In this document: positions 7,888-50,353 of the stretch, piece after piece | Layout of the letters: the number at the start of each line of letters is the position of its first letter | Position numbering within the stretch: position 1 is the stretch's first letter | Source of the DNA: a virus | Strand: one strand, 5' to 3' | DNA length: 50,353 bases | IMG/VR virus record: IMGVR_UViG_3300045051_001499 | Coordinates: 1 to 50,353 of that record | Notes under the pieces: model-generated | Seen by the model: the letters and a program-made list of their open reading frames with translations, nothing else | What the model was told of the DNA's origin: nothing | The model's database searches: none | Translations under genes and position numbers: made by a program

Positions 7888-8045
7888 TGGTGATGGTGTA
7901 TCGGCACTTCTCCCCGGAGTTGGCCAGTGCTGCCGCACTGGCCGACATCAGCCTCGAACGCCTCAAGATGTGGGCGATCGAGTTGGATCATGACGAGGCC
8001 AAGATCCTTGAGCGGATCAAGGAATATAAGGAACGTCATGCGTAG
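7887..8045 (+). CDS. Small hypothetical protein, 52 aa
   Basis: ATG 7887 shares its A with the thyX stop (TGATG), and the frame ends at TAG 8043-8045, overlapping the HTH gene start at 8038. The product is mostly helical: ASAAALADISLERLK followed by a charged helix LDHDEAKILERIKEYK. It could be a small partner or inhibitor, but no family is recognised. Its support is the tight packing on both sides and protein-like composition. Confidence 0.65.
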   Translation: MVMVYRHFSPELASAAALADISLERLKMWAIELDHDEAKILERIKEYKERHA

Positions 8046-8259: not shown

Positions 8260-8741
8260 GCCTCAAGAACGACGGCCGCCTTGCCCAGCGGGAGTTCGAA
8301 GCCTACTGGGAGCAGCAAGGCAAGGCGGCCTACTTGTTCCGTCTCACTGATGCAGCAGAGGTGGCCGGCATGAATGCCGGCCGCTTCTCCACCGTCAAGA
8401 AGCAGCCGGCAGATTACCTGCTGCTCGATCGAGGGCGCCTCGGCTTTGCCGAGGTCAAGTCGACCGAGAACCCCAAGGGGTTCCGGCTGTCGATGCTCAC
8501 CGAATACCAGCTCGGCACCATGCAGCGGGTCACCGCAGCCGGCGGCGGATATGACGTGTTCGTCCGTCGGCTCGGCCCCGCCGCGGCCTGGTACCGCGTA
8601 CCGGCGGTGGCGGTGCTGGCGGCCGAGACCCGGTCGCTGTCCTGGGAGCAACTCGAAGCGATGCGCGTCGACATGACGCCGGTCGCCACCCCAACCAAGA
8701 AGGCCAAACGGCCGTCCTTCTTTCCTGCACAGGGAACCTGA
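8256..8741 (+). CDS. PD-(D/E)xK nuclease, RecU-like Holliday junction resolvase
   Basis: A 161-residue protein with the RecU/Hjc-type nuclease core: an Asp in PADYLLL (about residue 53) and the E-x-K pair in FAEVKST (about 64-70), followed by a helix with QLGTMQRV and a GGGYDVFVRR strand. RecU-type enzymes cut Holliday junctions and branched DNA, which fits the surrounding recombination genes. The C-terminal 25 residues are basic and proline-rich (TPTKKAKRPSFF) and may bind DNA. The start overlaps the HTH gene stop. Confidence 0.78.
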   Translation: MSLKNDGRLAQREFEAYWEQQGKAAYLFRLTDAAEVAGMNAGRFSTVKKQPADYLLLDRGRLGFAEVKSTENPKGFRLSMLTEYQLGTMQRVTAAGGGYDVFVRRLGPAAAWYRVPAVAVLAAETRSLSWEQLEAMRVDMTPVATPTKKAKRPSFFPAQGT

Positions 8742-8744
8742 CAC

Positions 8745-9216
8745 ATGCACTTCCGTCACTTCATGGTCGACGTCGAGACCACCGGCCTTCGCCCCGACCG
8801 CAACGCCATGATCCAGCTCGCGGTCCCGCTCCTGGGACGAGGATACCCGGCGCTGGTGGGGGCAGCAGCGGCGCGAGGTCTATGAGAGTGTCACTGCCAC
8901 CGCAGCACCGCCGCTGCAGGTGCTGCAGGCGTTCGCCGCCTGGGCCGCCGAAGACATGCTCGACCCGCCTGATCGGTTCTTCTGGGCGAACAACGCCTCG
9001 TTCGACTGGGGCTTTCTGTCGAGCTACCTGTACGACTACGAGATCCCCAACCCATTCAACTTCCGCAAGGTGCGGGACATTCGCTGCTTCCTGGAAGGTA
9101 ATCGCTTCCCCGAGCCGGTTCCCGCCGTCGAGGTCGTGAGCACCGACGGCATGGATCACAACGCACTACATGACTGCATCAAGCAAATCGACTGGTTGTT
9201 CAAGGCGATGCCGTGA
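8745..9216 (+). pseudogene. DnaQ-type 3'-5' exonuclease gene broken by a frameshift
   Basis: ATG 8745 encodes a classic Exo I start (HFMVDVETTGLRPDRNAMIQLA) but hits a stop at 8885. From about 8830 the next frame encodes the rest of the same fold: SWDEDTRRWWGQQRREVYESV, then the Exo II block WANNASFDWGFLSSYL and the Exo III-like DHNALHDC. The two halves match the DEDDh/Rv2179c-like family and all catalytic residues exist, but in different frames. The join lies between about 8817 and 8830 and appears to lack the roughly 25 residues that normally separate the blocks. This is either a real deletion or a sequencing error. Confidence 0.75.
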
Positions 9217-9419
9217 TGGACGAGAAACGCAAACGTCTGGCGGAGGAGATCCGCCAGACTGCGGAGGAGTTGGTGACTAATCTGTCATCAGGTTCCCCTT
9301 GGACCGACGTATTTGTTTCACTCGAGAGTATGAGCTGTCTCAGAGCCGCGGTGTATTACTTAGCCCGAGCCGATGGGGCGGTCGTATTCCTCGATCAGCG
9401 AGGCACCAACAATGTCTGA
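9213..9419 (+). CDS. Hypothetical protein, 68 aa
   Basis: Start is GTG 9213 (overlapping the previous stop as GTGA) or ATG 9216. The product begins with a strongly charged helix (DEKRKRLAEEIRQTAEEL) and continues with a hydrophobic segment around residues 42-62 that ends in VVFLDQRG. No recognised domain. It overlaps the next short gene by 8 bases. Confidence 0.55.
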   Translation: MMDEKRKRLAEEIRQTAEELVTNLSSGSPWTDVFVSLESMSCLRAAVYYLARADGAVVFLDQRGTNNV

Positions 9420-9522
9420 CAGATCAATAATCAGTCTGGCAATCTGCGGCTGCGTAGCCGCGGCTTGTGTTGTAACGAATTCGGCTTGGCCACTGCTCGT
9501 CTTGGTGCTCATCCTGGGGTGA
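9412..9522 (+). CDS. Short membrane peptide, 36 aa
   Basis: ATG 9412 overlaps the previous stop by 8 bases and the frame ends 5 bases before the SbcD start. After MSDRS the peptide is almost entirely hydrophobic: a first stretch IISLAICGCVAAACVV, a short polar NS, then PLLVLVLILG. It could be one or two membrane spans. There is no homologue I recognise; it may also act as a leader coupling translation into SbcD. Confidence 0.45.
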   Translation: MSDRSIISLAICGCVAAACVVTNSAWPLLVLVLILG

Positions 9523-9527
9523 TCAAC

Positions 9528-10529
9528 ATGTTTCAGATCATCAACGACATTCCGGTCGAGATCCTGGGTGATGTCCACCTCGGCCGCAAGTTCCGCAACG
9601 GCGTTCCCCTGCACCGCCGAGGTGAACGAGAAGAGGCGGTGTGGGCCGGGCTGGAGGCCAGCCTGGAAGCCTCCCCCTCGGATGGCTTGCACGTTCAGAT
9701 GGGCGACCTGTTCGACAAAATGGTTGTTCCCTACAGCGTGGTCATGCGTGCCGCCTCACTGTACCGCCAAGCCGCTCGGTGCAATGAGGCTTGCACGTTC
9801 GTGGTGCTCCGCGGCAACCACGACGCCAGCCGGGACACCAGTCAATGGTCGGCCCTCGACGTGTTCAAAGCCCTGGTCAGGGATCAGAAGAACATCCTCG
9901 TGGTGGATGAGGAGCCGGCCTACTTGTGGGAGATGGGTTTCTACCCGTGGTGCGCGTTCAAGACCGCGGCTGAGATGGCGGCCGACACCCCCAAGGATAT
10001 CGTCGCCGCCTTCGGTCACTGGGACGTCAAGTCCTTCGGCGGCAGCGACGATAATCTGCTGCCCATCGAACAACTGGCCGAGGTTGAGCACATCTTCACT
10101 GGTCACGACCACAAGCCTCGGGTCGAGATGGTGCCGGTATCGGATGGCAGACGGCTCACCAAGTTTCGTCAGGTCACCGTCGTCGGGTCCATGCAACCCT
10201 ACGCCCATGGGGAAGACGCCGATGACAGCCCCGACCCGATGTACGTCACCTATGACCTGGATCAGCTACCCGACCCTCCCGCCCTGGTCAACAAGTGCGT
10301 CCGGGTCCGGCTGAAGCCTGGGCAGGAGCTGCCGGACATCGACTGCCTGCAGCTGACGCCGCAGCGGATCGACGCCGAAGGCCGGGTGGTCGACACCGAG
10401 GTCGAGTTCGCTGCCTTCGACATGGCCCGGCTGATGACCGAGACCTTCACCGAGGCCAACCTGCCGGCCGGGGTGATCTCCGCGCTGACTGAGCGGTTCT
10501 CGCAGCTGCGGGAACTGTCCGATGCTTAG
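9528..10529 (+). CDS. sbcD: SbcD/Mre11-type nuclease subunit (gp47-like)
   Basis: A 333-residue calcineurin-like metallophosphoesterase. The start at ATG 9528 is chosen because the conserved fold begins at once. Motifs: GDVHLG (residues 15-20), GDLFD (about 57), RGNHD (about 94), GHWD (about 161) and GHDHK (about 190), all in SbcD/Mre11 order and spacing. It pairs with the SbcC ATPase at 12279 as a DNA end-processing nuclease like T4 gp47/gp46. The two subunits are separated here by the deaminase and a regulatory cassette rather than being adjacent. Its stop overlaps the deaminase start. Confidence 0.93.
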   Translation: MFQIINDIPVEILGDVHLGRKFRNGVPLHRRGEREEAVWAGLEASLEASPSDGLHVQMGDLFDKMVVPYSVVMRAASLYRQAARCNEACTFVVLRGNHDASRDTSQWSALDVFKALVRDQKNILVVDEEPAYLWEMGFYPWCAFKTAAEMAADTPKDIVAAFGHWDVKSFGGSDDNLLPIEQLAEVEHIFTGHDHKPRVEMVPVSDGRRLTKFRQVTVVGSMQPYAHGEDADDSPDPMYVTYDLDQLPDPPALVNKCVRVRLKPGQELPDIDCLQLTPQRIDAEGRVVDTEVEFAAFDMARLMTETFTEANLPAGVISALTERFSQLRELSDA

Positions 10530-11365: not shown

Positions 11366-11530
11366 ATGAAGGATATTAAGACTGTTTCGATTGCGGTCAA
11401 AATGACCGAGGAACAACTGCGCTGGCTGGACCGCTGGCGTGCGTTCCAGCTGGATGTCCCCAGCCGGCCGGAGGCTGTTCGGCGCTTGATCGAGAGCGCG
11501 ACCCTGCCGGCGGAGAACCCCCATGTCTGA
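11366..11530 (+). CDS. Ribbon-helix-helix (Arc/CopG-like) regulator, 54 aa
   Basis: ATG 11366, behind a good GGAGG site, encodes a 54-residue protein with RHH layout: a beta strand KTVSIAVKM (residues 5-13), helix 1 TEEQLRWLDRWRAFQL (14-29) and helix 2 SRPEAVRRLIES (33-44). This is the size of P22 Arc. Its stop overlaps the downstream antirepressor gene by 8 bases, so both come from one message, as arc-ant do in P22. RHH dimers bind short palindromic half-sites in tandem, making this the leading candidate to bind the AGCTTGTA palindromes. Confidence 0.82.
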   Translation: MKDIKTVSIAVKMTEEQLRWLDRWRAFQLDVPSRPEAVRRLIESATLPAENPHV

Positions 11531-12275
11531 GGTGGTCCCCTTCGTTTTCGACGGCCGCCCCATCGGCGTCGTCTCGGTCGACGGCGAACCCTGGTTCGTC
11601 GGCAAGGATGTCGCGGCAGCGTTGGGGTACGCTGACCCCAAGAAGGCCATTCGGCAGCACTGTAAGGCATTGAAAAAGTTCAATATGGGTGTATTAGCAC
11701 AATTAAATATACTAAACCCACCGCCGAGCGGGCTGCTGATGATCCCTGAACGGGACCTGTATCGCCTGATCATGCGGTCGAACCTGCCGTCCGCCGAGCG
11801 GTTCGAAGAGTGGGTGGTAGGGACGGTGTTGCCGGCCGTTCGCAAGACCGGAAGCTACAACGCTCCCGACGCCATGAAGATGCTGAACGATCCGGCGACG
11901 CTACGTCAGCTGCTCCTTAACTATGACGAAAAGATTGCTGAATTGCAGCAGAACGTCGAGGAGATGACGCCGAAGGCCGAGTTCTACGACCGATACGGTG
12001 ACGAGACTGAGACCTACAACCTCCGTCATGCCGCCCGGATATTGTCTGACCACCCCAACAAAGTCCTCAACGTACTCAGAGTACGAAAGTTCTTATTCTA
12101 CGAGGGTGGCAGACAAGTCCCCTATGCGCAGTGGCTCAAGCGAGAACTATTTATCATGAAGATCATCGAAGATACCAACGGTAATCTTCGATCAGAAACC
12201 CACATGACCCCAAAAGGTCTGGCGTTCTTTCATCGCTATCTATCGCCCGAGTTCGACCCCCTGCTGAGGGCCTGA
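11523..12275 (+). CDS. Phage antirepressor with BRO-N and KilAC domains
   Basis: A 250-residue two-domain regulator. The N-terminal BRO-N domain (about 1-110) shows FDGRPIGVVSVDGEPWFVGKDVAAALGY and the FEEWVVGTVLPAVRKTGSY end. A short linker with a coiled segment (EKIAELQQNVEEM) leads to a KilAC-like domain (about 155-240) with LRHAARIL, QWLKRELF and the closing THMTPKGLAFFHRYL. Such proteins inactivate phage repressors or act on DNA in lytic switching. It is co-transcribed with the RHH gene and lies 3 bases upstream of SbcC. A short 15-bp palindrome (12072-12086) lies inside its KilAC region. Confidence 0.9.
   Translation: MSEVVPFVFDGRPIGVVSVDGEPWFVGKDVAAALGYADPKKAIRQHCKALKKFNMGVLAQLNILNPPPSGLLMIPERDLYRLIMRSNLPSAERFEEWVVGTVLPAVRKTGSYNAPDAMKMLNDPATLRQLLLNYDEKIAELQQNVEEMTPKAEFYDRYGDETETYNLRHAARILSDHPNKVLNVLRVRKFLFYEGGRQVPYAQWLKRELFIMKIIEDTNGNLRSETHMTPKGLAFFHRYLSPEFDPLLRA
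12072..12086. repeat. Short 15-bp intragenic palindrome in the antirepressor gene
   Basis: CGTACTC-A-GAGTACG lies in the KilAC part of the 11523 gene. Seven-bp arms can arise by chance in a window this size, so significance is low. It is recorded because the two other regulator genes carry much longer intragenic palindromes. Confidence 0.45.
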
Positions 12276-12278
12276 CAC

Positions 12279-14474
12279 ATGCTCCACTCTCTGAAATACT
12301 CTGTGACCTTCCCGACCACTGGGCGGGAGTTCAGCTCCGACGTCAACTTCGACACCGGACTCACCGCCATCACCGGCAGCAACGAAGCCGGCAAGTCCCT
12401 TCACCTGGAGTTCATCGCCTTTGCCCTCTATGGCAGCAAGGCTCTGCGGGGTGAGGCCGACGACTACAAGACCCTCAAGGTCGAGATGGAGTTCTCCGTC
12501 CGGGACGCTCGCTACCGGATCTTCCGCAACGGCAGCAAGGTCACCCTGCATCAGGGCGACACCCCGCTGACCTCGGGCACCAAGGCCGTCAATGCCGCCG
12601 TGGTTCGTTTGCTCGGCTACGACTGGACCGTGTTCAAGATGGCCAACCTGACCTGCCAGGGTGAGGTGGTGGCCCTGGGGAACATGACCCCCTCCGCCCG
12701 CCGCGCCGCCGTCGACCAGACCATCGGCCTCGACGTGCTCGACGATCTCGCTGGATGGGCTGGTGATCAGGTGCGGACCAGTGAGACCGAGGCGGTGGCG
12801 ATCGAGCGGGTGATGGGCGCCGAGCCGATCGAGCCGGCGAGGCCGGAAGGCTACCGCCCGGTGGACGAGATCAGGCTCGAGCTGGAGCAGTTGCGCGTCC
12901 TGGATCAGGAGCGCATGGAGATAGAGGCGTGGCTGAAGACCCGACCGACCTTGGGCGAGAAGCCGGTGCCGCCATGCCCTGAGACGGCCAAGGAACTGGA
13001 AGCCCAGGTCGACGCCCGCCGGGCAGCGGCGCTGGAGCTGGCGGCGCTGCGCAACCAGATCGCTGCGATCCCCGACGCCACCTTGAGCGAGGAGGAGATT
13101 ACCCAGCAGGAAGCCGCCTGGGAGACCTACCACGCTTCGCAGGAGAAGCAGAAAGCCCTCGCCGGTCTGGTCAAACCCGGCATCCGCCGTGAGGTGGCCA
13201 TCAGCCTGATCGAGCAGTGGCAGCGGAGGCGGCGCTGGGAGGACTTCCAGGCGCTGTTGAAGCGGGTGCCGAAGCCGGAGCGGCCGTTGGACGAGGTGCT
13301 GCAGGACATGCACACCTGGAACCTGATCGACCGCTTCAACGCCCGTGACAAGCTGCTCTCTCAGGGTGAACACATCTGCCCGGCTTGTGGCCATCATTGG
13401 CCGGTGGCGGCCGATGCCTTGAAGATGTACGCCGATCTACCGACCAACCGGCCGGCTTCTCCGGAATTGCCCTGGACTGAGCTGGAGCGCATCGGGCGTG
13501 CCTGGAGCAGCTGGGACGCCGCCGCCGAGCAACGGGCGACGCTGGAGTGCGAGGAGGTCGACATCCCCGGAGCCAGCGAGGCTGACGCCCGTGAGGTGCT
13601 GCGGAGATGGGAGGCTTGGGACGCCTCCGCCTCGGTGCGCGCCCAATACCAGTCAGTGCCGGACAACGCGCCGAAGCCCTTGATCGCCGAGGCCGCCCTG
13701 CGGCGGGCGCGGATCGCCCTGTCGCAGATGGTGCAGAAGGCCGAGCTGGACAAGCGGGCGGCGGCGATCGCCCTGCCGGCCGACCGTGAGCCGGATCTGC
13801 TGGCGCGGCGGCGCTATGAGACCGAGTTGTCTCATTGGGAGGAGGCTCATCGCCAGCTTGAGGCGTGGCAGGTTGAGGAGGCCAAGAAGACCTTCCGGCT
13901 GCGGCTGTTGACTAATATCCCTGGGCGGATCGCTTCCGCCCAGGCCCGAGTGGAGGCAGCCCAGCGCTACGAGATCGAGCTGGAAGCCTATCAAGCGCGG
14001 GCACGGCAGTGGCAGCAGCACTCGACCCGGTCGGCCGAACTGAGGGCCTCCGCTGGCCACTGGCAGGCGGCGCGCAAGGCGATCGGGGTGTTGCGCTCGA
14101 AGGTCAAGGGCTATCTGGTGCCGTCGCTGAACAAGGTGGCGTCGTCGCTGCTGTACCAGATGACGGGCGGCACCCGCTCCTCGATCGTGGTGACCGAGGA
14201 CTTCGAGATCACCGTCGATGGGCAGGCTCTGCGGACCCTGTCCGGCTCGGCCAAAGCGGTGGCCAATCTGGCGCTGCGGGTGGCGCTGGGGCTCGTCCTC
14301 ACTAACCGGGTCTTTAGCGTCTTTATGGGGGATGAGGTGGACGAAGCGATGGACGCTGACCGTGCCGGCTTCACTGCCGAGGCGTTCTCGGCGCTGAGCA
14401 GCACGATCAAACAGATCCTGCTGGTGTCTCATAAGGACATCGACGCGGACAATGAGATCAGGGTGGGAGCTTAA
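12279..14474 (+). CDS. sbcC: SbcC/Rad50-type ATPase (gp46-like)
   Basis: A 731-residue SMC-type ATPase partner of SbcD. Walker A is GSNEAGKS (33-40). Two long Glu/Arg/Ala-rich coiled-coil arms flank a zinc-hook CxxC at about residues 367-370 (CPACGHHW). The C-terminal lobe has an ABC signature-like LSGSAKAVANLALR (about 650) and a Walker B/D-loop region FMGDEVDEAMDADR (about 683). The signature reads LSGSA rather than LSGGE. It belongs to the RHH-antirepressor transcript, so end processing and the regulatory switch are co-expressed. Confidence 0.93.
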   Translation: MLHSLKYSVTFPTTGREFSSDVNFDTGLTAITGSNEAGKSLHLEFIAFALYGSKALRGEADDYKTLKVEMEFSVRDARYRIFRNGSKVTLHQGDTPLTSGTKAVNAAVVRLLGYDWTVFKMANLTCQGEVVALGNMTPSARRAAVDQTIGLDVLDDLAGWAGDQVRTSETEAVAIERVMGAEPIEPARPEGYRPVDEIRLELEQLRVLDQERMEIEAWLKTRPTLGEKPVPPCPETAKELEAQVDARRAAALELAALRNQIAAIPDATLSEEEITQQEAAWETYHASQEKQKALAGLVKPGIRREVAISLIEQWQRRRRWEDFQALLKRVPKPERPLDEVLQDMHTWNLIDRFNARDKLLSQGEHICPACGHHWPVAADALKMYADLPTNRPASPELPWTELERIGRAWSSWDAAAEQRATLECEEVDIPGASEADAREVLRRWEAWDASASVRAQYQSVPDNAPKPLIAEAALRRARIALSQMVQKAELDKRAAAIALPADREPDLLARRRYETELSHWEEAHRQLEAWQVEEAKKTFRLRLLTNIPGRIASAQARVEAAQRYEIELEAYQARARQWQQHSTRSAELRASAGHWQAARKAIGVLRSKVKGYLVPSLNKVASSLLYQMTGGTRSSIVVTEDFEITVDGQALRTLSGSAKAVANLALRVALGLVLTNRVFSVFMGDEVDEAMDADRAGFTAEAFSALSSTIKQILLVSHKDIDADNEIRVGA

Positions 14475-33731: not shown

Positions 33732-34433
33732 TTAGGCCCCCGTGAATGGATCGTAGGTCCGGCCGGCGGTGGTGAATAGCGTGGCAGGCACGGCCGTCGG
33801 TGTGATGACGGACGTCTCGGCTGCCAGGGCGCCCTTCAGCGCTCGCTGAAGGGCCTCCCAATCAACGTCGAAGCGGGTGAACCCGTCCTGGCCGGAGGTC
33901 ACCGTCTTGGCCGCCTTGAGCTGCAGCGCCGGGATCTGCCGCAGCGCTTCGAACAAGGCGATGGCCCGGTTGGCGCGCAACAGATCGGTGTCGAGGGCAG
34001 CGTCCATTACCGTGATGCCGCCGAGCTGGGTGGCCAGGGCTTGGTAGGCGCCATAGATGTCGATGTCGGTATCCGGCAGCTCCGAGACGTTGACACCGAG
34101 CAGGCGCCGTACGTCGTCGGGGGTCACGTCGATGGACACCCAGTCGATCAGGTAATAGGCCAGCTCGCGACTGTGGCCATCGAAGGTGTATTCGATGACC
34201 CGGCGCTCGATCGTGCGTGTCTTGTTGTTGTCCGCCGCCAGGACAGTGATCGTCGCCTGCGTGCTTGTCGGCGCCAGATCAATGTCGACGTAGCCGGGGA
34301 TAGCGACACCGCTGTGGTCGCGCACGGTGGCCGTTGCTGTGGTCGGGACCACGTAGTCGTAGCCATTGGGGGAGTCGACCAGGAAAGGCAGGCTCAGGGT
34401 GACGTCCCGGTCAGCGATGTAGGTCTTCGGCAT
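33732..34433 (-). CDS. Head-tail connector (adaptor) protein
   Basis: A 233-residue protein. The N-terminal half is beta-rich (VTLSLPFLVDSPNGYDYVV, ITVLAADNNKTRTIERRVIEY) and is followed by a helical adaptor-like part (TPDDVRRLLGVNVSELPDTDIDIYGAYQALATQL, LLRANRAIALFEALRQIP). Helical segments starting DDVRRLLG are common in head-tail adaptors of the gp6 type. It follows the major capsid gene group. A GGCCCC hairpin without a T run lies just upstream. Confidence 0.65.
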   Translation of the reverse strand: MPKTYIADRDVTLSLPFLVDSPNGYDYVVPTTATATVRDHSGVAIPGYVDIDLAPTSTQATITVLAADNNKTRTIERRVIEYTFDGHSRELAYYLIDWVSIDVTPDDVRRLLGVNVSELPDTDIDIYGAYQALATQLGGITVMDAALDTDLLRANRAIALFEALRQIPALQLKAAKTVTSGQDGFTRFDVDWEALQRALKGALAAETSVITPTAVPATLFTTAGRTYDPFTGA

Positions 34434-34474
34434 GAGCCCCCCTTATGCGAACGGCCCCTGGTGGGGCCGCCCGA

Positions 34475-34786
34475 TTACTTCTTGGTCTCGACCGGCGGTG
34501 GTTTGGTCTCGGTCGGCGGGGTCGGACTGACGAACGCCAGATAATCCTCGACCGCCTTGGCGAGACCACCTTCGCCGGCATATGCCTCGTTGCGAAGGAA
34601 GTGTGCCCACCCCTGATCGTCGGCATTGTCCGGCAGCTCCTTCACCAAGGCCACTTGGCCGATGAGGGTGCGCTGCTGGAAGAAGCCAGTCTGGGAGATC
34701 ACCGCCGGACGGTGGGCCGGGATCGTCTGGCCGCTCTCGGGGCAGACCAGCTGGAACGGGCCGGTCGTTTTGACGAGCGCTTTCAT
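34475..34786 (-). CDS. Hypothetical protein downstream of the capsid gene, 103 aa
   Basis: A 103-residue protein with a compact N-terminal part (MKALVKTTGPFQLVCPESGQTIPAHRPAVI) and a Pro/Thr-rich charged tail (PTPPTETKPPPVETKK). Position between major capsid and connector genes suggests a minor head protein. GGAG precedes its start. A perfect 28-bp palindrome sits between it and the capsid stop. Confidence 0.65.
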   Translation of the reverse strand: MKALVKTTGPFQLVCPESGQTIPAHRPAVISQTGFFQQRTLIGQVALVKELPDNADDQGWAHFLRNEAYAGEGGLAKAVEDYLAFVSPTPPTETKPPPVETKK

Positions 34787-34803
34787 CTTGGTCTCCTGAG
34801 CTG

Positions 34804-34831
34804 CGAGGGCGCCCAGCGCTGGGCGCCCTCG
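34804..34831 (-). terminator. Perfect 28-bp palindrome after the major capsid gene
   Basis: Arms CGAGGGCGCCCAGC and GCTGGGCGCCCTCG are fully complementary with no spacer. It begins 7 bases after the capsid stop on the minus strand. No T run follows, so it is either a weak terminator, an mRNA-stabilising 3' hairpin or a protein-binding site. Confidence 0.6.
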
Positions 34832-34837
34832 TCAACC

Positions 34838-36055
34838 CTAGTTGGTGTAGTCGTACACCTGACGGGTGTCGCCGAAGACCAGCTTGTAGCCGGCGTTTTG
34901 GGTCCGCACGTAGGTGATGGACTGGTTCACGATCGCCTGCTCGCTCTCGGCGATCGAGCTGTTGGCCTCGATCAGCTCCTCGACGGTCTCGGCCTTGGTA
35001 ATGCCGAGCAGTTGGCCGGGGGTCATGGCCGAGGCGAGAGCGAAGTTGACCGACCCCTGCAACAGCGGCACACCGCCGAGCTGGAAGCCGGACATCGCCA
35101 GACGCTGGGCGGCGGTGGTCGGGTCCAGTTCATTGCCGACGCCCAGGGCCGCCACCTGGGGCGCGGCGAACAGCAGCAACCACTCGACGTAGGCGTCCCA
35201 GTTGCCGATCACCGTATCCACCGGGGTGCCGGACTTGGCGCGATCCACCAGCCACTTGAGCAGCGGCTTGTACTGGATCGATCCGGTCTGGGTGCCGCCG
35301 TAATCGGACTGCTTCTTGACGGTGGACGCCGCGTTGACGCCGTCGCCGTTCAGCATGGTCAGGACCGCGGCGGACACCTTGCTGATTTCCAGCTCGCGTG
35401 CCACACGAGCGGCATACGGGGTCAGCAGGTCGAGCGAAGCCCGGCGGGTGAACTCGTAGGAGGTCTCGTAGCCCGAGCCGAACTTCCAGATCCGCACCGT
35501 CGACTGCGAGGTGCGGATCGTCCGGGTGGGGATGCGCCCCAGCTCGGATACCGTCGAGGTGCGGAAATTGTCGGTGGTGCCGTCGCCCTCGTTGTTGACG
35601 ACCGTCGAGATCAGTTCGGTGCCCGAGATGGTCCGGCTGTTGGCCACCAGCGGGGTAGTGGTCTCGTAGCTGGTCATCCGATAGTTCATGCGAACCATAT
35701 CGTCGACCACTTCCGGGAACAGCAGCCGGGTGCCGTCGTAGGTCTGGAAGGTCTGGCTGGCCAGCTGCAGGGTGACGCCTTCGGCAAAGTCATTGCGCAG
35801 CGGCAAGCTCAGGTAGGCCAGGGTCGCTTCGTAGCCGTGCAGGCCCTCGTAGCGGCGCCGGTCTTCGGCCTGGGACAGACGCGGGTCGATCGCCAGGGTT
35901 AGGTAGTCACGGACGGAGACGCCGAACGAGGCGGCCTCCCGCGCGAGACGCAGGCCGGCGGACTTCGAGTTGCCCGGCGTGGTGTCGAGCAGCGAGGCGA
36001 GCACCGCTTCGGGGGCCTGCCGCTTGATCTCGGTCAACGGACGAATGTGGCTCAT
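34838..36055 (-). CDS. Major capsid protein
   Basis: A 405-residue protein between the decoration and connector genes. Features: TEIKRQAPEAVLASLLDTTPG (N-terminal arm), VRDYLTLAIDPRLSQAEDRRRYEGLHGYEATLAYL, then a region of alternating strands with GTELISTVVNNEGD and ARELEISKVSAAVLTMLNGDG. The following FQLGGVPLLQGSVNFALASAMTPGQLLG is a P-domain-like segment of HK97-fold capsids. Assignment rests on synteny, length and fold-like patterning; the exact family is uncertain. Confidence 0.82.
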   Translation of the reverse strand: MSHIRPLTEIKRQAPEAVLASLLDTTPGNSKSAGLRLAREAASFGVSVRDYLTLAIDPRLSQAEDRRRYEGLHGYEATLAYLSLPLRNDFAEGVTLQLASQTFQTYDGTRLLFPEVVDDMVRMNYRMTSYETTTPLVANSRTISGTELISTVVNNEGDGTTDNFRTSTVSELGRIPTRTIRTSQSTVRIWKFGSGYETSYEFTRRASLDLLTPYAARVARELEISKVSAAVLTMLNGDGVNAASTVKKQSDYGGTQTGSIQYKPLLKWLVDRAKSGTPVDTVIGNWDAYVEWLLLFAAPQVAALGVGNELDPTTAAQRLAMSGFQLGGVPLLQGSVNFALASAMTPGQLLGITKAETVEELIEANSSIAESEQAIVNQSITYVRTQNAGYKLVFGDTRQVYDYTN

Positions 36056-48676: not shown

Positions 48677-49594
48677 CTAACCTTCAATAACCAAAGGAGA
48701 GACCAGAGTCAGCACTTGCTTGATCTCCGGTATCACTCGACGGAACTCGGTCATCAGCATACAGCGACGCAAGCTGTCAGGACTGATCAGCTTGCGCTTG
48801 TCGTGCTCGTAGATATGACTGCCCATGTGCAGAGCCAGCAAGGTGTACTGGTTGGACAGCCACTTCCTGTTAAGAGCCGAGTGAAGTTGATCGATGTCGA
48901 AGTAGTCCTCTCCACTGATCCTCAGCAGCTCGACCTGTTTGCCGTTCAGCTCGACCCAGCCCTTGCTGACAAGGCGAAGCTTGAGGTCGCCACGTCGGTA
49001 GGCGACGAAGGTCTTGATCAGGACGGCCCTGGCCTCTCGACCCTTGGGGGTCCTTGACAGAACCGTCAGAAGGAGAGCCTGCTCCTCATTGAGCCAATAA
49101 ATGGTAGAGTCTTGGCTGGTGCCGTTACCGCTAGTTGACGGTTCACGCAGTGCGTGAACCGTCCCAAGACCTTGAATTTCCTCGATATTGGCCTTGATCG
49201 TCTGTCTGATATTGAGCGGCTGAGCCATCTCCAACAGGTTCCGTGCCAGATCAACGTCCCGGACCCGAAGCTCACCATCGATTTCACGCACGTCGAGGCC
49301 GGAGAGGAGACCGTCCTGCTCCAACTCGGCCGGCGTTGGTGGCGCCGTCAGGGTGGTCGGGGCCTCATGGTACAGCTGCTCGGGGAAATGCTTGCCAAAG
49401 TGGGCGGCTGCCTTCCGGCCGGTCGGCTCGTCGAGCTGGTACATGGTGATGTAGCGACCGAGCGGGAGCCGGCCTGGGCGAGAGGGCAGGACCTGGCGCT
49501 TGCACCAGTAGGTGAACTTGGTGATCGGGACGCCAATGCTATTGGCGAAAAGATGGTGGTCGACAGTGATGGAGGAGTTTGGTAGATTGGACAT
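48677..49594 (-). CDS. Rha-like phage regulatory protein (antirepressor-like)
   Basis: A 305-residue regulator. The N-terminal 70 residues resemble a DNA-binding helical domain (LFANSIGVPITKFTYWCKRQ). The middle (about 103-205) has IDGELRVRDVDLARNL, NIRQTIKANIEEIQ and IYWLNEEQALLLTVLSRTPK, then VLIKTFVAYRRGDLKL, as in Rha/Ant-type proteins. The C-terminal domain is helical. It is a paralogue of the divergent gene at 49745. A perfect 27-bp palindrome lies inside the codons for VHALRE (49137-49163). AAAGG precedes the start. Confidence 0.75.
   Translation of the reverse strand: MSNLPNSSITVDHHLFANSIGVPITKFTYWCKRQVLPSRPGRLPLGRYITMYQLDEPTGRKAAAHFGKHFPEQLYHEAPTTLTAPPTPAELEQDGLLSGLDVREIDGELRVRDVDLARNLLEMAQPLNIRQTIKANIEEIQGLGTVHALREPSTSGNGTSQDSTIYWLNEEQALLLTVLSRTPKGREARAVLIKTFVAYRRGDLKLRLVSKGWVELNGKQVELLRISGEDYFDIDQLHSALNRKWLSNQYTLLALHMGSHIYEHDKRKLISPDSLRRCMLMTEFRRVIPEIKQVLTLVSPLVIEG
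49137..49163. repeat. Perfect 27-bp intragenic palindrome in the 48677 regulator
   Basis: Arms GACGGTTCACGCA (49137-49149) and TGCGTGAACCGTC (49151-49163) are complementary around a single G. It encodes the GTVHAL region just after the IRQTIKANIEEIQ helix. The paralogue carries a different palindrome at the same place. Confidence 0.85.
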
Positions 49595-49619
49595 GAGAGT
49601 GGCCTTTGGTAGTAGTGTG

Positions 49620-49661
49620 GAAACGGCGGTAGTTCGACAGAACTGCCGCCGTTTCTATTTT
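49620..49661 (+). terminator. Intrinsic terminator between divergent regulators, plus orientation
   Basis: Sixteen-position stem GAAACGGCGGTAGTTC/GAACTGCCGCCGTTTC (one G-T pair) with a GACA loop, then TATTTT on the plus strand. It lies between the leftward gene start (49594) and palindrome copy 9, so it would stop rightward RNA entering the 49745 gene, or act as leader hairpin for the leftward gene. Confidence 0.78.
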
Positions 49662-49698
49662 GGCGGATGTGATAGGGGCGGCCGAAGCTCTTAATTCA

Positions 49699-49715
49699 AG
49701 CTTGTATGACAAGCC
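49699..49715. promoter_or_regulatory. 17-bp palindromic operator-like site, copy 9 of 9
   Basis: AGCTTGTATGACAAGCC: perfect left arm, two mismatches in the right. It lies 30 bases before ATG 49745 and 105 bases from the divergent start at 49594. TATATT follows on the plus strand two bases after the palindrome. Confidence 0.7.
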
Positions 49716-49744
49716 TTTATATTGTTGGGGCCGGCAAGGTCGAG

Positions 49745-50353
49745 ATGGAGATGATCAACGGGGAGCTCTGCGTGCGGGACCGAAGCCTCGGAGAGTATCT
49801 TGGGATGGCCCGACCGACCAATGTGCGCCAGACCGTAAAAGACAATTTGCGGCAATTTCAACGGCTTGGATTGGTGCATTCCTGGAATGCACCAATCCTC
49901 AGCGGCAAGGGTCGTGTCACCGAAACTGAGGAATTTTGGCTCAACGAACACCAGACCATGCTGGCGATCGAGAAGTCCGGGATGCCCGCCGCCGACGATC
50001 TGCTGATCGACATGATCAACGTGTTCGTCGCCTACCGCCGGGGTGACCTCAAGCTTCGGCTGGTGAAGCGCGGCACGATCGAGATCAATGGGCTGCCCGT
50101 CGAGCGCTTCCGCATGGGAGGTGTGAACTGGTCGGATGCCACCCAGCTGGATCGGGCAATCGGAAAGGGCGCGGTTATCCGAGCCAACCGCAACTCCGCC
50201 CTGCGGTTCAGCGGCCGGCTGCGGGAGCACGATGGCCGGCTCGTCGTCTCGGACGAGGGTCTCGTCGAGCTGGTTGGGATGTCGGAAAACCGAGGTGTTC
50301 GCAAGGAGCTGATGGACGCCTTGCGTGGACTGGGCGCGGTGGCGGCACTGGGG
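49745..50353 (+). CDS. Rha-like regulatory protein, paralogue of 48677 (3' end outside window)
   Basis: ATG 49745 opens a frame of 203 codons with no stop before the window ends. It aligns with the middle of the 48677 protein: INGELCVRDRSLGEYL, NVRQTVKDNLRQFQRLGLVH, FWLNEHQTMLAIEKSG and INVFVAYRRGDLKLRLV. It lacks that protein's N-terminal 100 residues, so it begins directly with the shared domain. Its later part (VNWSDATQLDRAIGKG, ENRGVRKELMDALRGLG) differs. A perfect 31-bp palindrome lies inside its codons for LGLVHSWNAPI (49868-49898). Confidence 0.75.
   Translation, partial: MEMINGELCVRDRSLGEYLGMARPTNVRQTVKDNLRQFQRLGLVHSWNAPILSGKGRVTETEEFWLNEHQTMLAIEKSGMPAADDLLIDMINVFVAYRRGDLKLRLVKRGTIEINGLPVERFRMGGVNWSDATQLDRAIGKGAVIRANRNSALRFSGRLREHDGRLVVSDEGLVELVGMSENRGVRKELMDALRGLGAVAALG
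49868..49898. repeat. Perfect 31-bp intragenic palindrome in the 49745 regulator
   Basis: Arms GGATTGGTGCATTCC (49868-49882) and GGAATGCACCAATCC (49884-49898) are fully complementary around one T. The position in the protein matches that of the 27-bp palindrome in the divergent paralogue, although the base sequences are unrelated. Confidence 0.88.

Follow-up and report, generated by a model that had tools for sequence, protein, structure and literature searches.

The stretch of DNA analysed here, called the window throughout, is the IMG/VR virus record IMGVR_UViG_3300045051_001499 at its full length of 50,353 bases. Genes for terminase, portal, tape-measure protein, primase, DNA polymerase, helicase and thymidylate synthase identify it as that of a tailed phage. 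Two divergent paralogues, gene 1 and gene 2, are aligned with 39% identity over 194 amino acids (E = 2e-38), and each carries a perfect palindrome within its coding sequence (Table 1). Gene 1 has an extra N-terminal segment of ~100 residues, followed by the conserved DNA-binding domain at about residues 104–205, and its palindrome reads GACGGTTCACGCA-G-TGCGTGAACCGTC on the plus strand. The palindrome of gene 2, GGATTGGTGCATTCC-T-GGAATGCACCAATCC, encodes the first strand of the predicted wing.

Table 1. Features of the two regulator genes and their palindromes (positions are those of the window)
Feature	Position	Strand	Description	Basis
Gene 1	48677..49594	-	Winged-HTH regulator, 305 aa	Open frame; paralogue of gene 2
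Gene 2	49706..50353	+	Winged-HTH regulator paralogous to gene 1; 216 aa or more, cut off at the contig end	Open frame; 39% identity
Gene 1 intragenic palindrome	49137..49163	-	13-bp arms, one-base centre; codons GTVHALREPS (Gly144 onward)	
Gene 2 intragenic palindrome	49868..49898	+	15-bp arms, one-base centre; codons GLVHSWNAPI (Gly55 onward)	
Gene 1 recognition-helix codons	49190..49216	-	Residues 127-135	Co-variation; helix position transferred from the gene 2 model
Gene 2 recognition-helix codons	49817..49843	+	Residues 38-46	Predicted helix 39-46; co-variation
Gene 2 first HTH helix	49778..49801	+	Residues 25-32	AlphaFold2 model
Gene 2 beta-hairpin wing	49877..49942	+	Strands 58-65 (encoded by the palindrome) and 71-79	AlphaFold2 model

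The coordinates, arm lengths and single-base centres of both perfect palindromes (13-1-13 and 15-1-15) are exactly those given in a preliminary description of this DNA, which also considered random palindromes of this length very unlikely. A simple composition estimate gives expected numbers of ~0.001 for the gene 1 site and ~0.0001 for the gene 2 site. The two are the sole odd-centred sites with 12 of 12 inner pairs in the window, and none of 4000 synonymous recodings of either peptide (TVHALREPS, LVHSWNAPI) attains 12 pairs. No second copy of either palindrome was found in the window, the next best match reaching 16–17 of 25. Both centres fall on the first base of an aligned codon (Leu or Trp), 15 nt after the start of the invariant Gly codon that closes the helix region, so the sites do occupy the same coding position, as had been noted. 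The accompanying statement that they share no sequence proved wrong. When the palindromes are aligned on their dyads, 6 of 13 arm positions agree. Position 5 is A and position 6 is C in both, which the Asn and Gln common to the two recognition helices would predict; the two are related half-sites, not unrelated sequences.

Other inverted repeats occur in the window. Between the divergent genes, upstream of gene 2 (49620–49655), a 16-bp hairpin with a 4-nt loop is followed by TATTTT; its sequence is unrelated to either palindrome. It looks like a rightward terminator; it may act as an attenuator, or mark where an antisense transcript of gene 1 stops. A perfect 28-bp even-centred palindrome (CGAGGGCGCCCAGC/GCTGGGCGCCCTCG) is located at 34804–34831, within an open frame (34445–35902) for which no PHROG or Pfam match was found, and another even-centred palindrome, with 11 of 12 pairs, is present at 33843.

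An AlphaFold2 model of the first 120 residues of gene 2 (pLDDT 89) comprises helices at residues 25–32, 39–46 and 48–53 and β-strands at 58–65 and 71–79, which is the predicted helix-turn-helix plus β-hairpin wing of the Bro-N/KilA-N/Rha-like superfamily. The best structural matches of this model in BFVD include Bro-N, Repressor domain and Regulatory proteins, and a PDB fold search for resemblance to a solved structure returned no match at E ≤ 0.001. Gene 1 scores 24.3 bits against Phage_pRha (cut-off 29.9), for which gene 2 is not listed, and 13.1 bits against Bro-N (cut-off 25.6). Among 50 homologues, 43 match Phage_pRha at E ≤ 0.01 and 15 match Bro-N, with a best E-value of 1.6e-8. The PHROG assignment of gene 1 is anti-repressor; no match of either gene to a replication-initiator family was seen in Pfam or PHROG. 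The two genes are best called members of a Rha/Bro-N-like winged-HTH subfamily that lies below the Pfam cut-offs for Rha and Bro-N. They are alike in predicted fold, phage context and PHROG 'anti-repressor' matches to Bro-N, KilA-N, ORF6N and Phage_pRha proteins (PF02498, PF04383, PF10543 and PF09669), to phage anti-repressors and to DinD, but this alphaproteobacterial subfamily falls mostly below the curated cut-offs.

Single-protein pattern scans of viral contigs with gene 1 and gene 2 returned no relatives, and a first diverse alignment was too variable to serve as a query. An alignment from which the loop had been deleted was used as the search query, so that retrieval did not favour palindromes, and with it genome contigs gave 39 loci and viral contigs 80, with 84 non-redundant members. 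Odd-centred palindromes with at least 8, 9 and 10 of 12 pairs occur in 77, 69 and 57 of these, respectively, with most centres 14–20 nt past the first base of the Gly codon. Elsewhere in the domain pairing is at the chance level (mean 3.2 of 12), and even-centred palindromes are not enriched in this set. After synonymous recoding only 19 members (maximum 28) attain at least 9 of 12, and the per-gene recoding tests combine to a Fisher p of 6e-79. Phage and plasmid homologues carry, at the same place, sites such as GGTTTGCGCCAC-C-GTGGCGCAAACC, GGTTATTTCCA-TGG-TGGAAATAACC and GTTGCGCGCCAC-C-GTGGCGCGCAAC. The intragenic palindrome persists here while its sequence changes from homologue to homologue (at least 9 of 12 in 69/84), and a conserved place with a variable sequence is what an operator embedded in the gene would present. 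Later members, found by HMM in 385 alphaproteobacterial genomes that had not been selected for palindromes, fit the same rule; the sole low scorer among them carries two even-centred palindromes instead. Symmetry declines beyond about 12–14 bp on each side of the centre, which is the size of an HTH-dimer operator.

Seven of the 84 homologues have no clear site. The loops of four members (L043, L107, L117 and L125) hold two or three tandem palindromes in which outer and central bases are common and the core half-site differs. Such differences at the core (L125, L043, L117) are unexpected under one strict specificity and count against an embedded operator. In a further member (L110) the domain is duplicated, with a palindrome in each copy.

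Conserved peptide motifs coincide with palindromes in related families, namely LRSQxVTSS in ORF6N, EF in KilA-N and DHFxxVxKMV in DinD-like proteins, as they would if a conserved wing sequence simply happened to have palindromic codons. Such an artefact at the protein level is barely credible, since the symmetry is lost in synonymous recodings, which already contradict it, and equally good palindromes arise from different peptides and reading frames. The centres fall in all three codon phases (42/28/6), a single GCGCCAC core encodes CATVAQ, APRWRK or RHRGA depending on which of three frames is used, and the site is able to sit in other codons, the Acetobacter palindrome lying 26 bp upstream, within the helix codons. 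Together, the three frames, the different peptides from one core and the moved Acetobacter site show that it is the DNA, not the protein, that is under selection here.

The half-sites track the recognition helix of the protein that encodes them. The more alike two helices are, the more alike are their half-sites (r = 0.32, partial 0.30, permutation p = 0.0005, in a sample thinned of close relatives and not fully corrected for phylogeny); C-terminal identity shows no such correlation (r = 0.007). The residues that best track the half-site lie at positions −17, −16, −13 and −9 from the Gly, which correspond to Leu127, Asn128, Gln131 and Ala135 in gene 1 (counted from Gly144) and to Thr38, Asn39, Gln42 and Asp46, on the predicted recognition helix, in gene 2. 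Arg at −17 goes with G at half-site position 7 in 31 of 32 cases, His with C in 7 of 8 and Leu with T in 3 of 3; Arg at −9 goes with C at position 3 in 32 of 35; residues −16 and −13 are associated with position 5. These associations run in colinear order with the helix residues. The residue-base association test also picks out positions −21 and −12, off the exposed face, which suggests that the sample retains some shared ancestry. The best safeguard available is given by pairs with dissimilar backbones: those no more than 55% identical outside the helix match at 3.1, 4.5, 4.8, 6.0 and 7.1 of 8 half-site positions when they share 0, 1, 2, 3 and 4 key residues, respectively. The site thus follows the recognition residues, as an embedded operator would.

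Compensatory changes are seen in both arms, as they also would be in a folded RNA, and a near-perfect inverted repeat of 27–31 nt is able to fold, so that the palindrome might have been selected for a transcript hairpin controlling translation, RNA decay or attenuation. This option, which the preliminary description had listed, found no support and is quite improbable. A structured RNA would tolerate G-U above A-C in its stem, and this was not found over four families: 58 mismatches of the first kind stand against 76 of the second, divided as 29 vs 42 in the present family, 21 vs 20 in Bro-N, 1 vs 8 in ORF6N and 7 vs 6 in KilA-N. The parity of the centre, odd or even, is fixed by class; pairing extends as far as the dyad, and in KilA-N sites (CGAATTCG) it runs straight across, which is impossible in an RNA loop; and the half-site bases follow the recognition helix of the protein.

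Matching sites are rare outside the genes. Three phages, one whole and two nearly whole, have one site each, in the gene. A scan of 18 bacterial genomes with the GCGCCAC-class pattern, allowing up to two mismatches, returned only 10 near-matches, nine distinct places when the two strands of a site are counted as one. Seven of them (in G003, G004, G005, G018, G020, G022 and G041) are inside independently located family domain matches, and two with two mismatches (L270 in G012 and L272 in G022) are in unrelated sequence. Second copies in promoters, sought in the window, the homologue loci and the phages, mostly did not turn up. A viral-contig member without an internal site (L012, gene at 8486–9253) has two strong matching palindromes about 530–600 bp upstream, at 7952 and 8025 in the reverse complement; this is as expected of a putative regulatory site that can move. 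At another locus (L074) a second palindrome of a different class, GGTTTTTTCCACGGCGGAAAAAACC, is found at position 2873, about 250 bp upstream of the gene's own site.

A single site per phage would also suit a replication origin or a packaging site bound by the encoded protein, the latter like pac in small terminase genes, and the tandem palindromes in some loops are iteron-like. The protein O of phage lambda is the established case with the same topology: gene O itself contains the protein's cognate inverted-repeat sites, the ori iterons, and from one related phage to another these change along with the specificity domain. The likeness is that of a phage DNA-binding protein with cognate sites inside its own gene and a domain that co-varies with them. 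Lambda O, however, initiates replication, and several iterons separate its domains, whereas here there is usually one palindrome, inside the DNA-binding domain of a protein with a KilA-N/Bro-N-like fold, and nothing points to replication. Genomes often hold several copies of the gene with different sites, two of them side by side in the window; the C-terminal parts are variable; PHROGs and Pfam group the domain with anti-repressors, Rha and Bro-N; and separate replication and terminase genes are annotated in MW202613. We therefore regard an origin or packaging role as unlikely.

The phages phiKX1 and phiKX2, which are sisters, are identical in the C-terminal part of the gene and strongly different from the upstream region through the helix codons to the palindrome. 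The two sites are of different classes, each going with its own different helix; helix and palindrome have been exchanged together as one cassette. The swap ends just past the palindrome, which could suggest that the palindrome is the footprint or target of a mobile or recombination system, such as an integrase, a homing enzyme or a small palindromic element. This is very improbable, as the sequences vary from gene to gene, matched to their own helix, and have almost no copies elsewhere in the genomes. Of the earlier proposal that the palindrome is a site of exchange, the exchange itself is thus seen in these two phages, but nothing marks the palindrome as a recombination site.

KilA-N and Rha had first been intended as negative controls; KilA-N, and the ORF6N genes retrieved by the Rha model, turned out to be positive, and HTH_3 and integrase genes were used in their place. 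Palindromes with at least 10 of 12 pairs are present in 26 of 26 KilA-N genes (type TAAnnnnnnCGAATTCGnnnnnnTTA), in 20 of 21 ORF6N genes (type CTTGAGGTCACAATTTGTGACCTCAAG) and in 71% of Bro-N genes; the corresponding values are 3% for HTH_3 and 4% for integrase. Of 51 non-redundant Bro-N genes from Alphaproteobacteria and Bacteroidia, 47 reach at least 9 of 12. Bro-N and its relatives thus resemble the window genes in having intragenic palindromes in the DNA-binding domain. The palindromes of DinD-like Bro-N members are even-centred. The only two curated Rha genes seen (L181, L182) have no intragenic palindrome. Bro-N is present in 60 of 198 sampled Bacteroidia genomes. Nearly all Bacteroidia KilA-N palindromes (L300–L329) have GAATTC, an EcoRI site, at the dyad, where it forms the conserved Glu-Phe codons.

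The dinD gene of E. coli strain A16 (L330, 629–1452) has an eroded form, ACCATTTCGTTGAAACCACCAAAATGGC, with 8 of 12 pairs, of the even-centred palindrome that is intact in DinD-like relatives. The A16 copy is annotated as frameshifted, and dinD is an SOS gene. The window itself holds a third regulator (11523–12275, plus strand) with Bro-N and KilAC domains (Pfam scores of 81 and 61 bits), which sits between an SbcD-like gene (9465–10529) and an SbcC-like gene (12279–14474). All that its loop has, at about 11687–11720, is an interrupted repeat, GGGTGTATTA...TATACTAAACCC, which is AT-rich although the sequence around it is GC-rich. As some homologues, this third gene and E. coli dinD lack a clear intact site, the palindrome is not essential to the protein.

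The co-variation of helix and half-site, the single site per genome and the control families without palindromes strongly favour one of the possibilities raised in the preliminary description, and each regulator very probably binds the palindrome inside its own gene. Binding would be as a symmetric dimer of the winged-HTH protein, on an operator in double-stranded DNA rather than an RNA hairpin, lying some 20–50 bp downstream of its recognition-helix codons. The half-site would be read in a colinear fashion: counted from the dyad, position 7 by residue −17, positions 5 and 4 by −16 and −13, and positions 3 and 2 by −9. Site and reader lie within about 100 bp and so would be inherited and exchanged as one cassette, which would allow specificity to diversify without loss of the cognate pair. 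The arrangement most likely serves negative autoregulation, through a roadblock within the gene, and cognate immunity to related phages that enter the cell would be a by-product; both are hypotheses, and we favour autorepression as the main use by a small measure. Other work would probably be carried out by the variable C-terminal domains. To the whole of this reading, an own-gene dimer operator inherited as a cassette and likely to serve autoregulation, we assign a probability of roughly 0.72 on sequence comparisons.

An intragenic site is not by itself proof of repression, because replication, packaging and cis-acting protein anchoring also need a cognate site. In the last of these, binding of the nascent protein to its own gene would make its C-terminal effector work mainly in cis or on prophage DNA nearby. 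Highly variable C-terminal parts are indeed found in the homologues behind one DNA-binding module, and the site is nearly unique to the gene itself. A cis preference is, however, without evidence, and repression is simpler and needs no extra assumption; we consider such anchoring doubtful. For repression from within a coding region there is a precedent in E. coli PurR, an autoregulator with an operator inside its own gene that provides negative feedback. The PurR site is part of a regulon-wide set, whereas the near-consensus site described here is almost unique to its gene and varies with the helix between homologues. Perfect inverted repeats within protein-coding sequence have been reported for nematomorph mitochondrial genes (PMC6649704); they concern unrelated organisms and many genes, with no link drawn there to DNA-binding specificity. 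A description of own-gene sites of the present kind was not found among open-licence papers, and in the same literature the targets of KilA-N, Bro-N and ORF6N regulators are mostly not described, though the genes are widespread in phages and bacteria.

It is probably a general rule in KilA-N, Bro-N, ORF6N and related phage regulators, as judged from the families compared, that the DNA-binding domain contains its own operator. Conserved motifs of these Pfam families, such as those of ORF6N, KilA-N and DinD-like proteins given above, would then be in part imprints of a DNA palindrome and not of what the protein does, specificity would change by helix-plus-site cassettes and the recognition code could be read from databases. 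Motif conservation in these families may accordingly reflect DNA rather than protein constraint, and should be interpreted with caution. If the rule is true, it would offer ready-made orthogonal repressor/operator pairs, and the specificity of each regulator would be readable from its own gene, for very many proteins and without experiments. The families would form a natural data set for a recognition code, and would hint at how specificity diversifies, with site and reader moving as a cassette.
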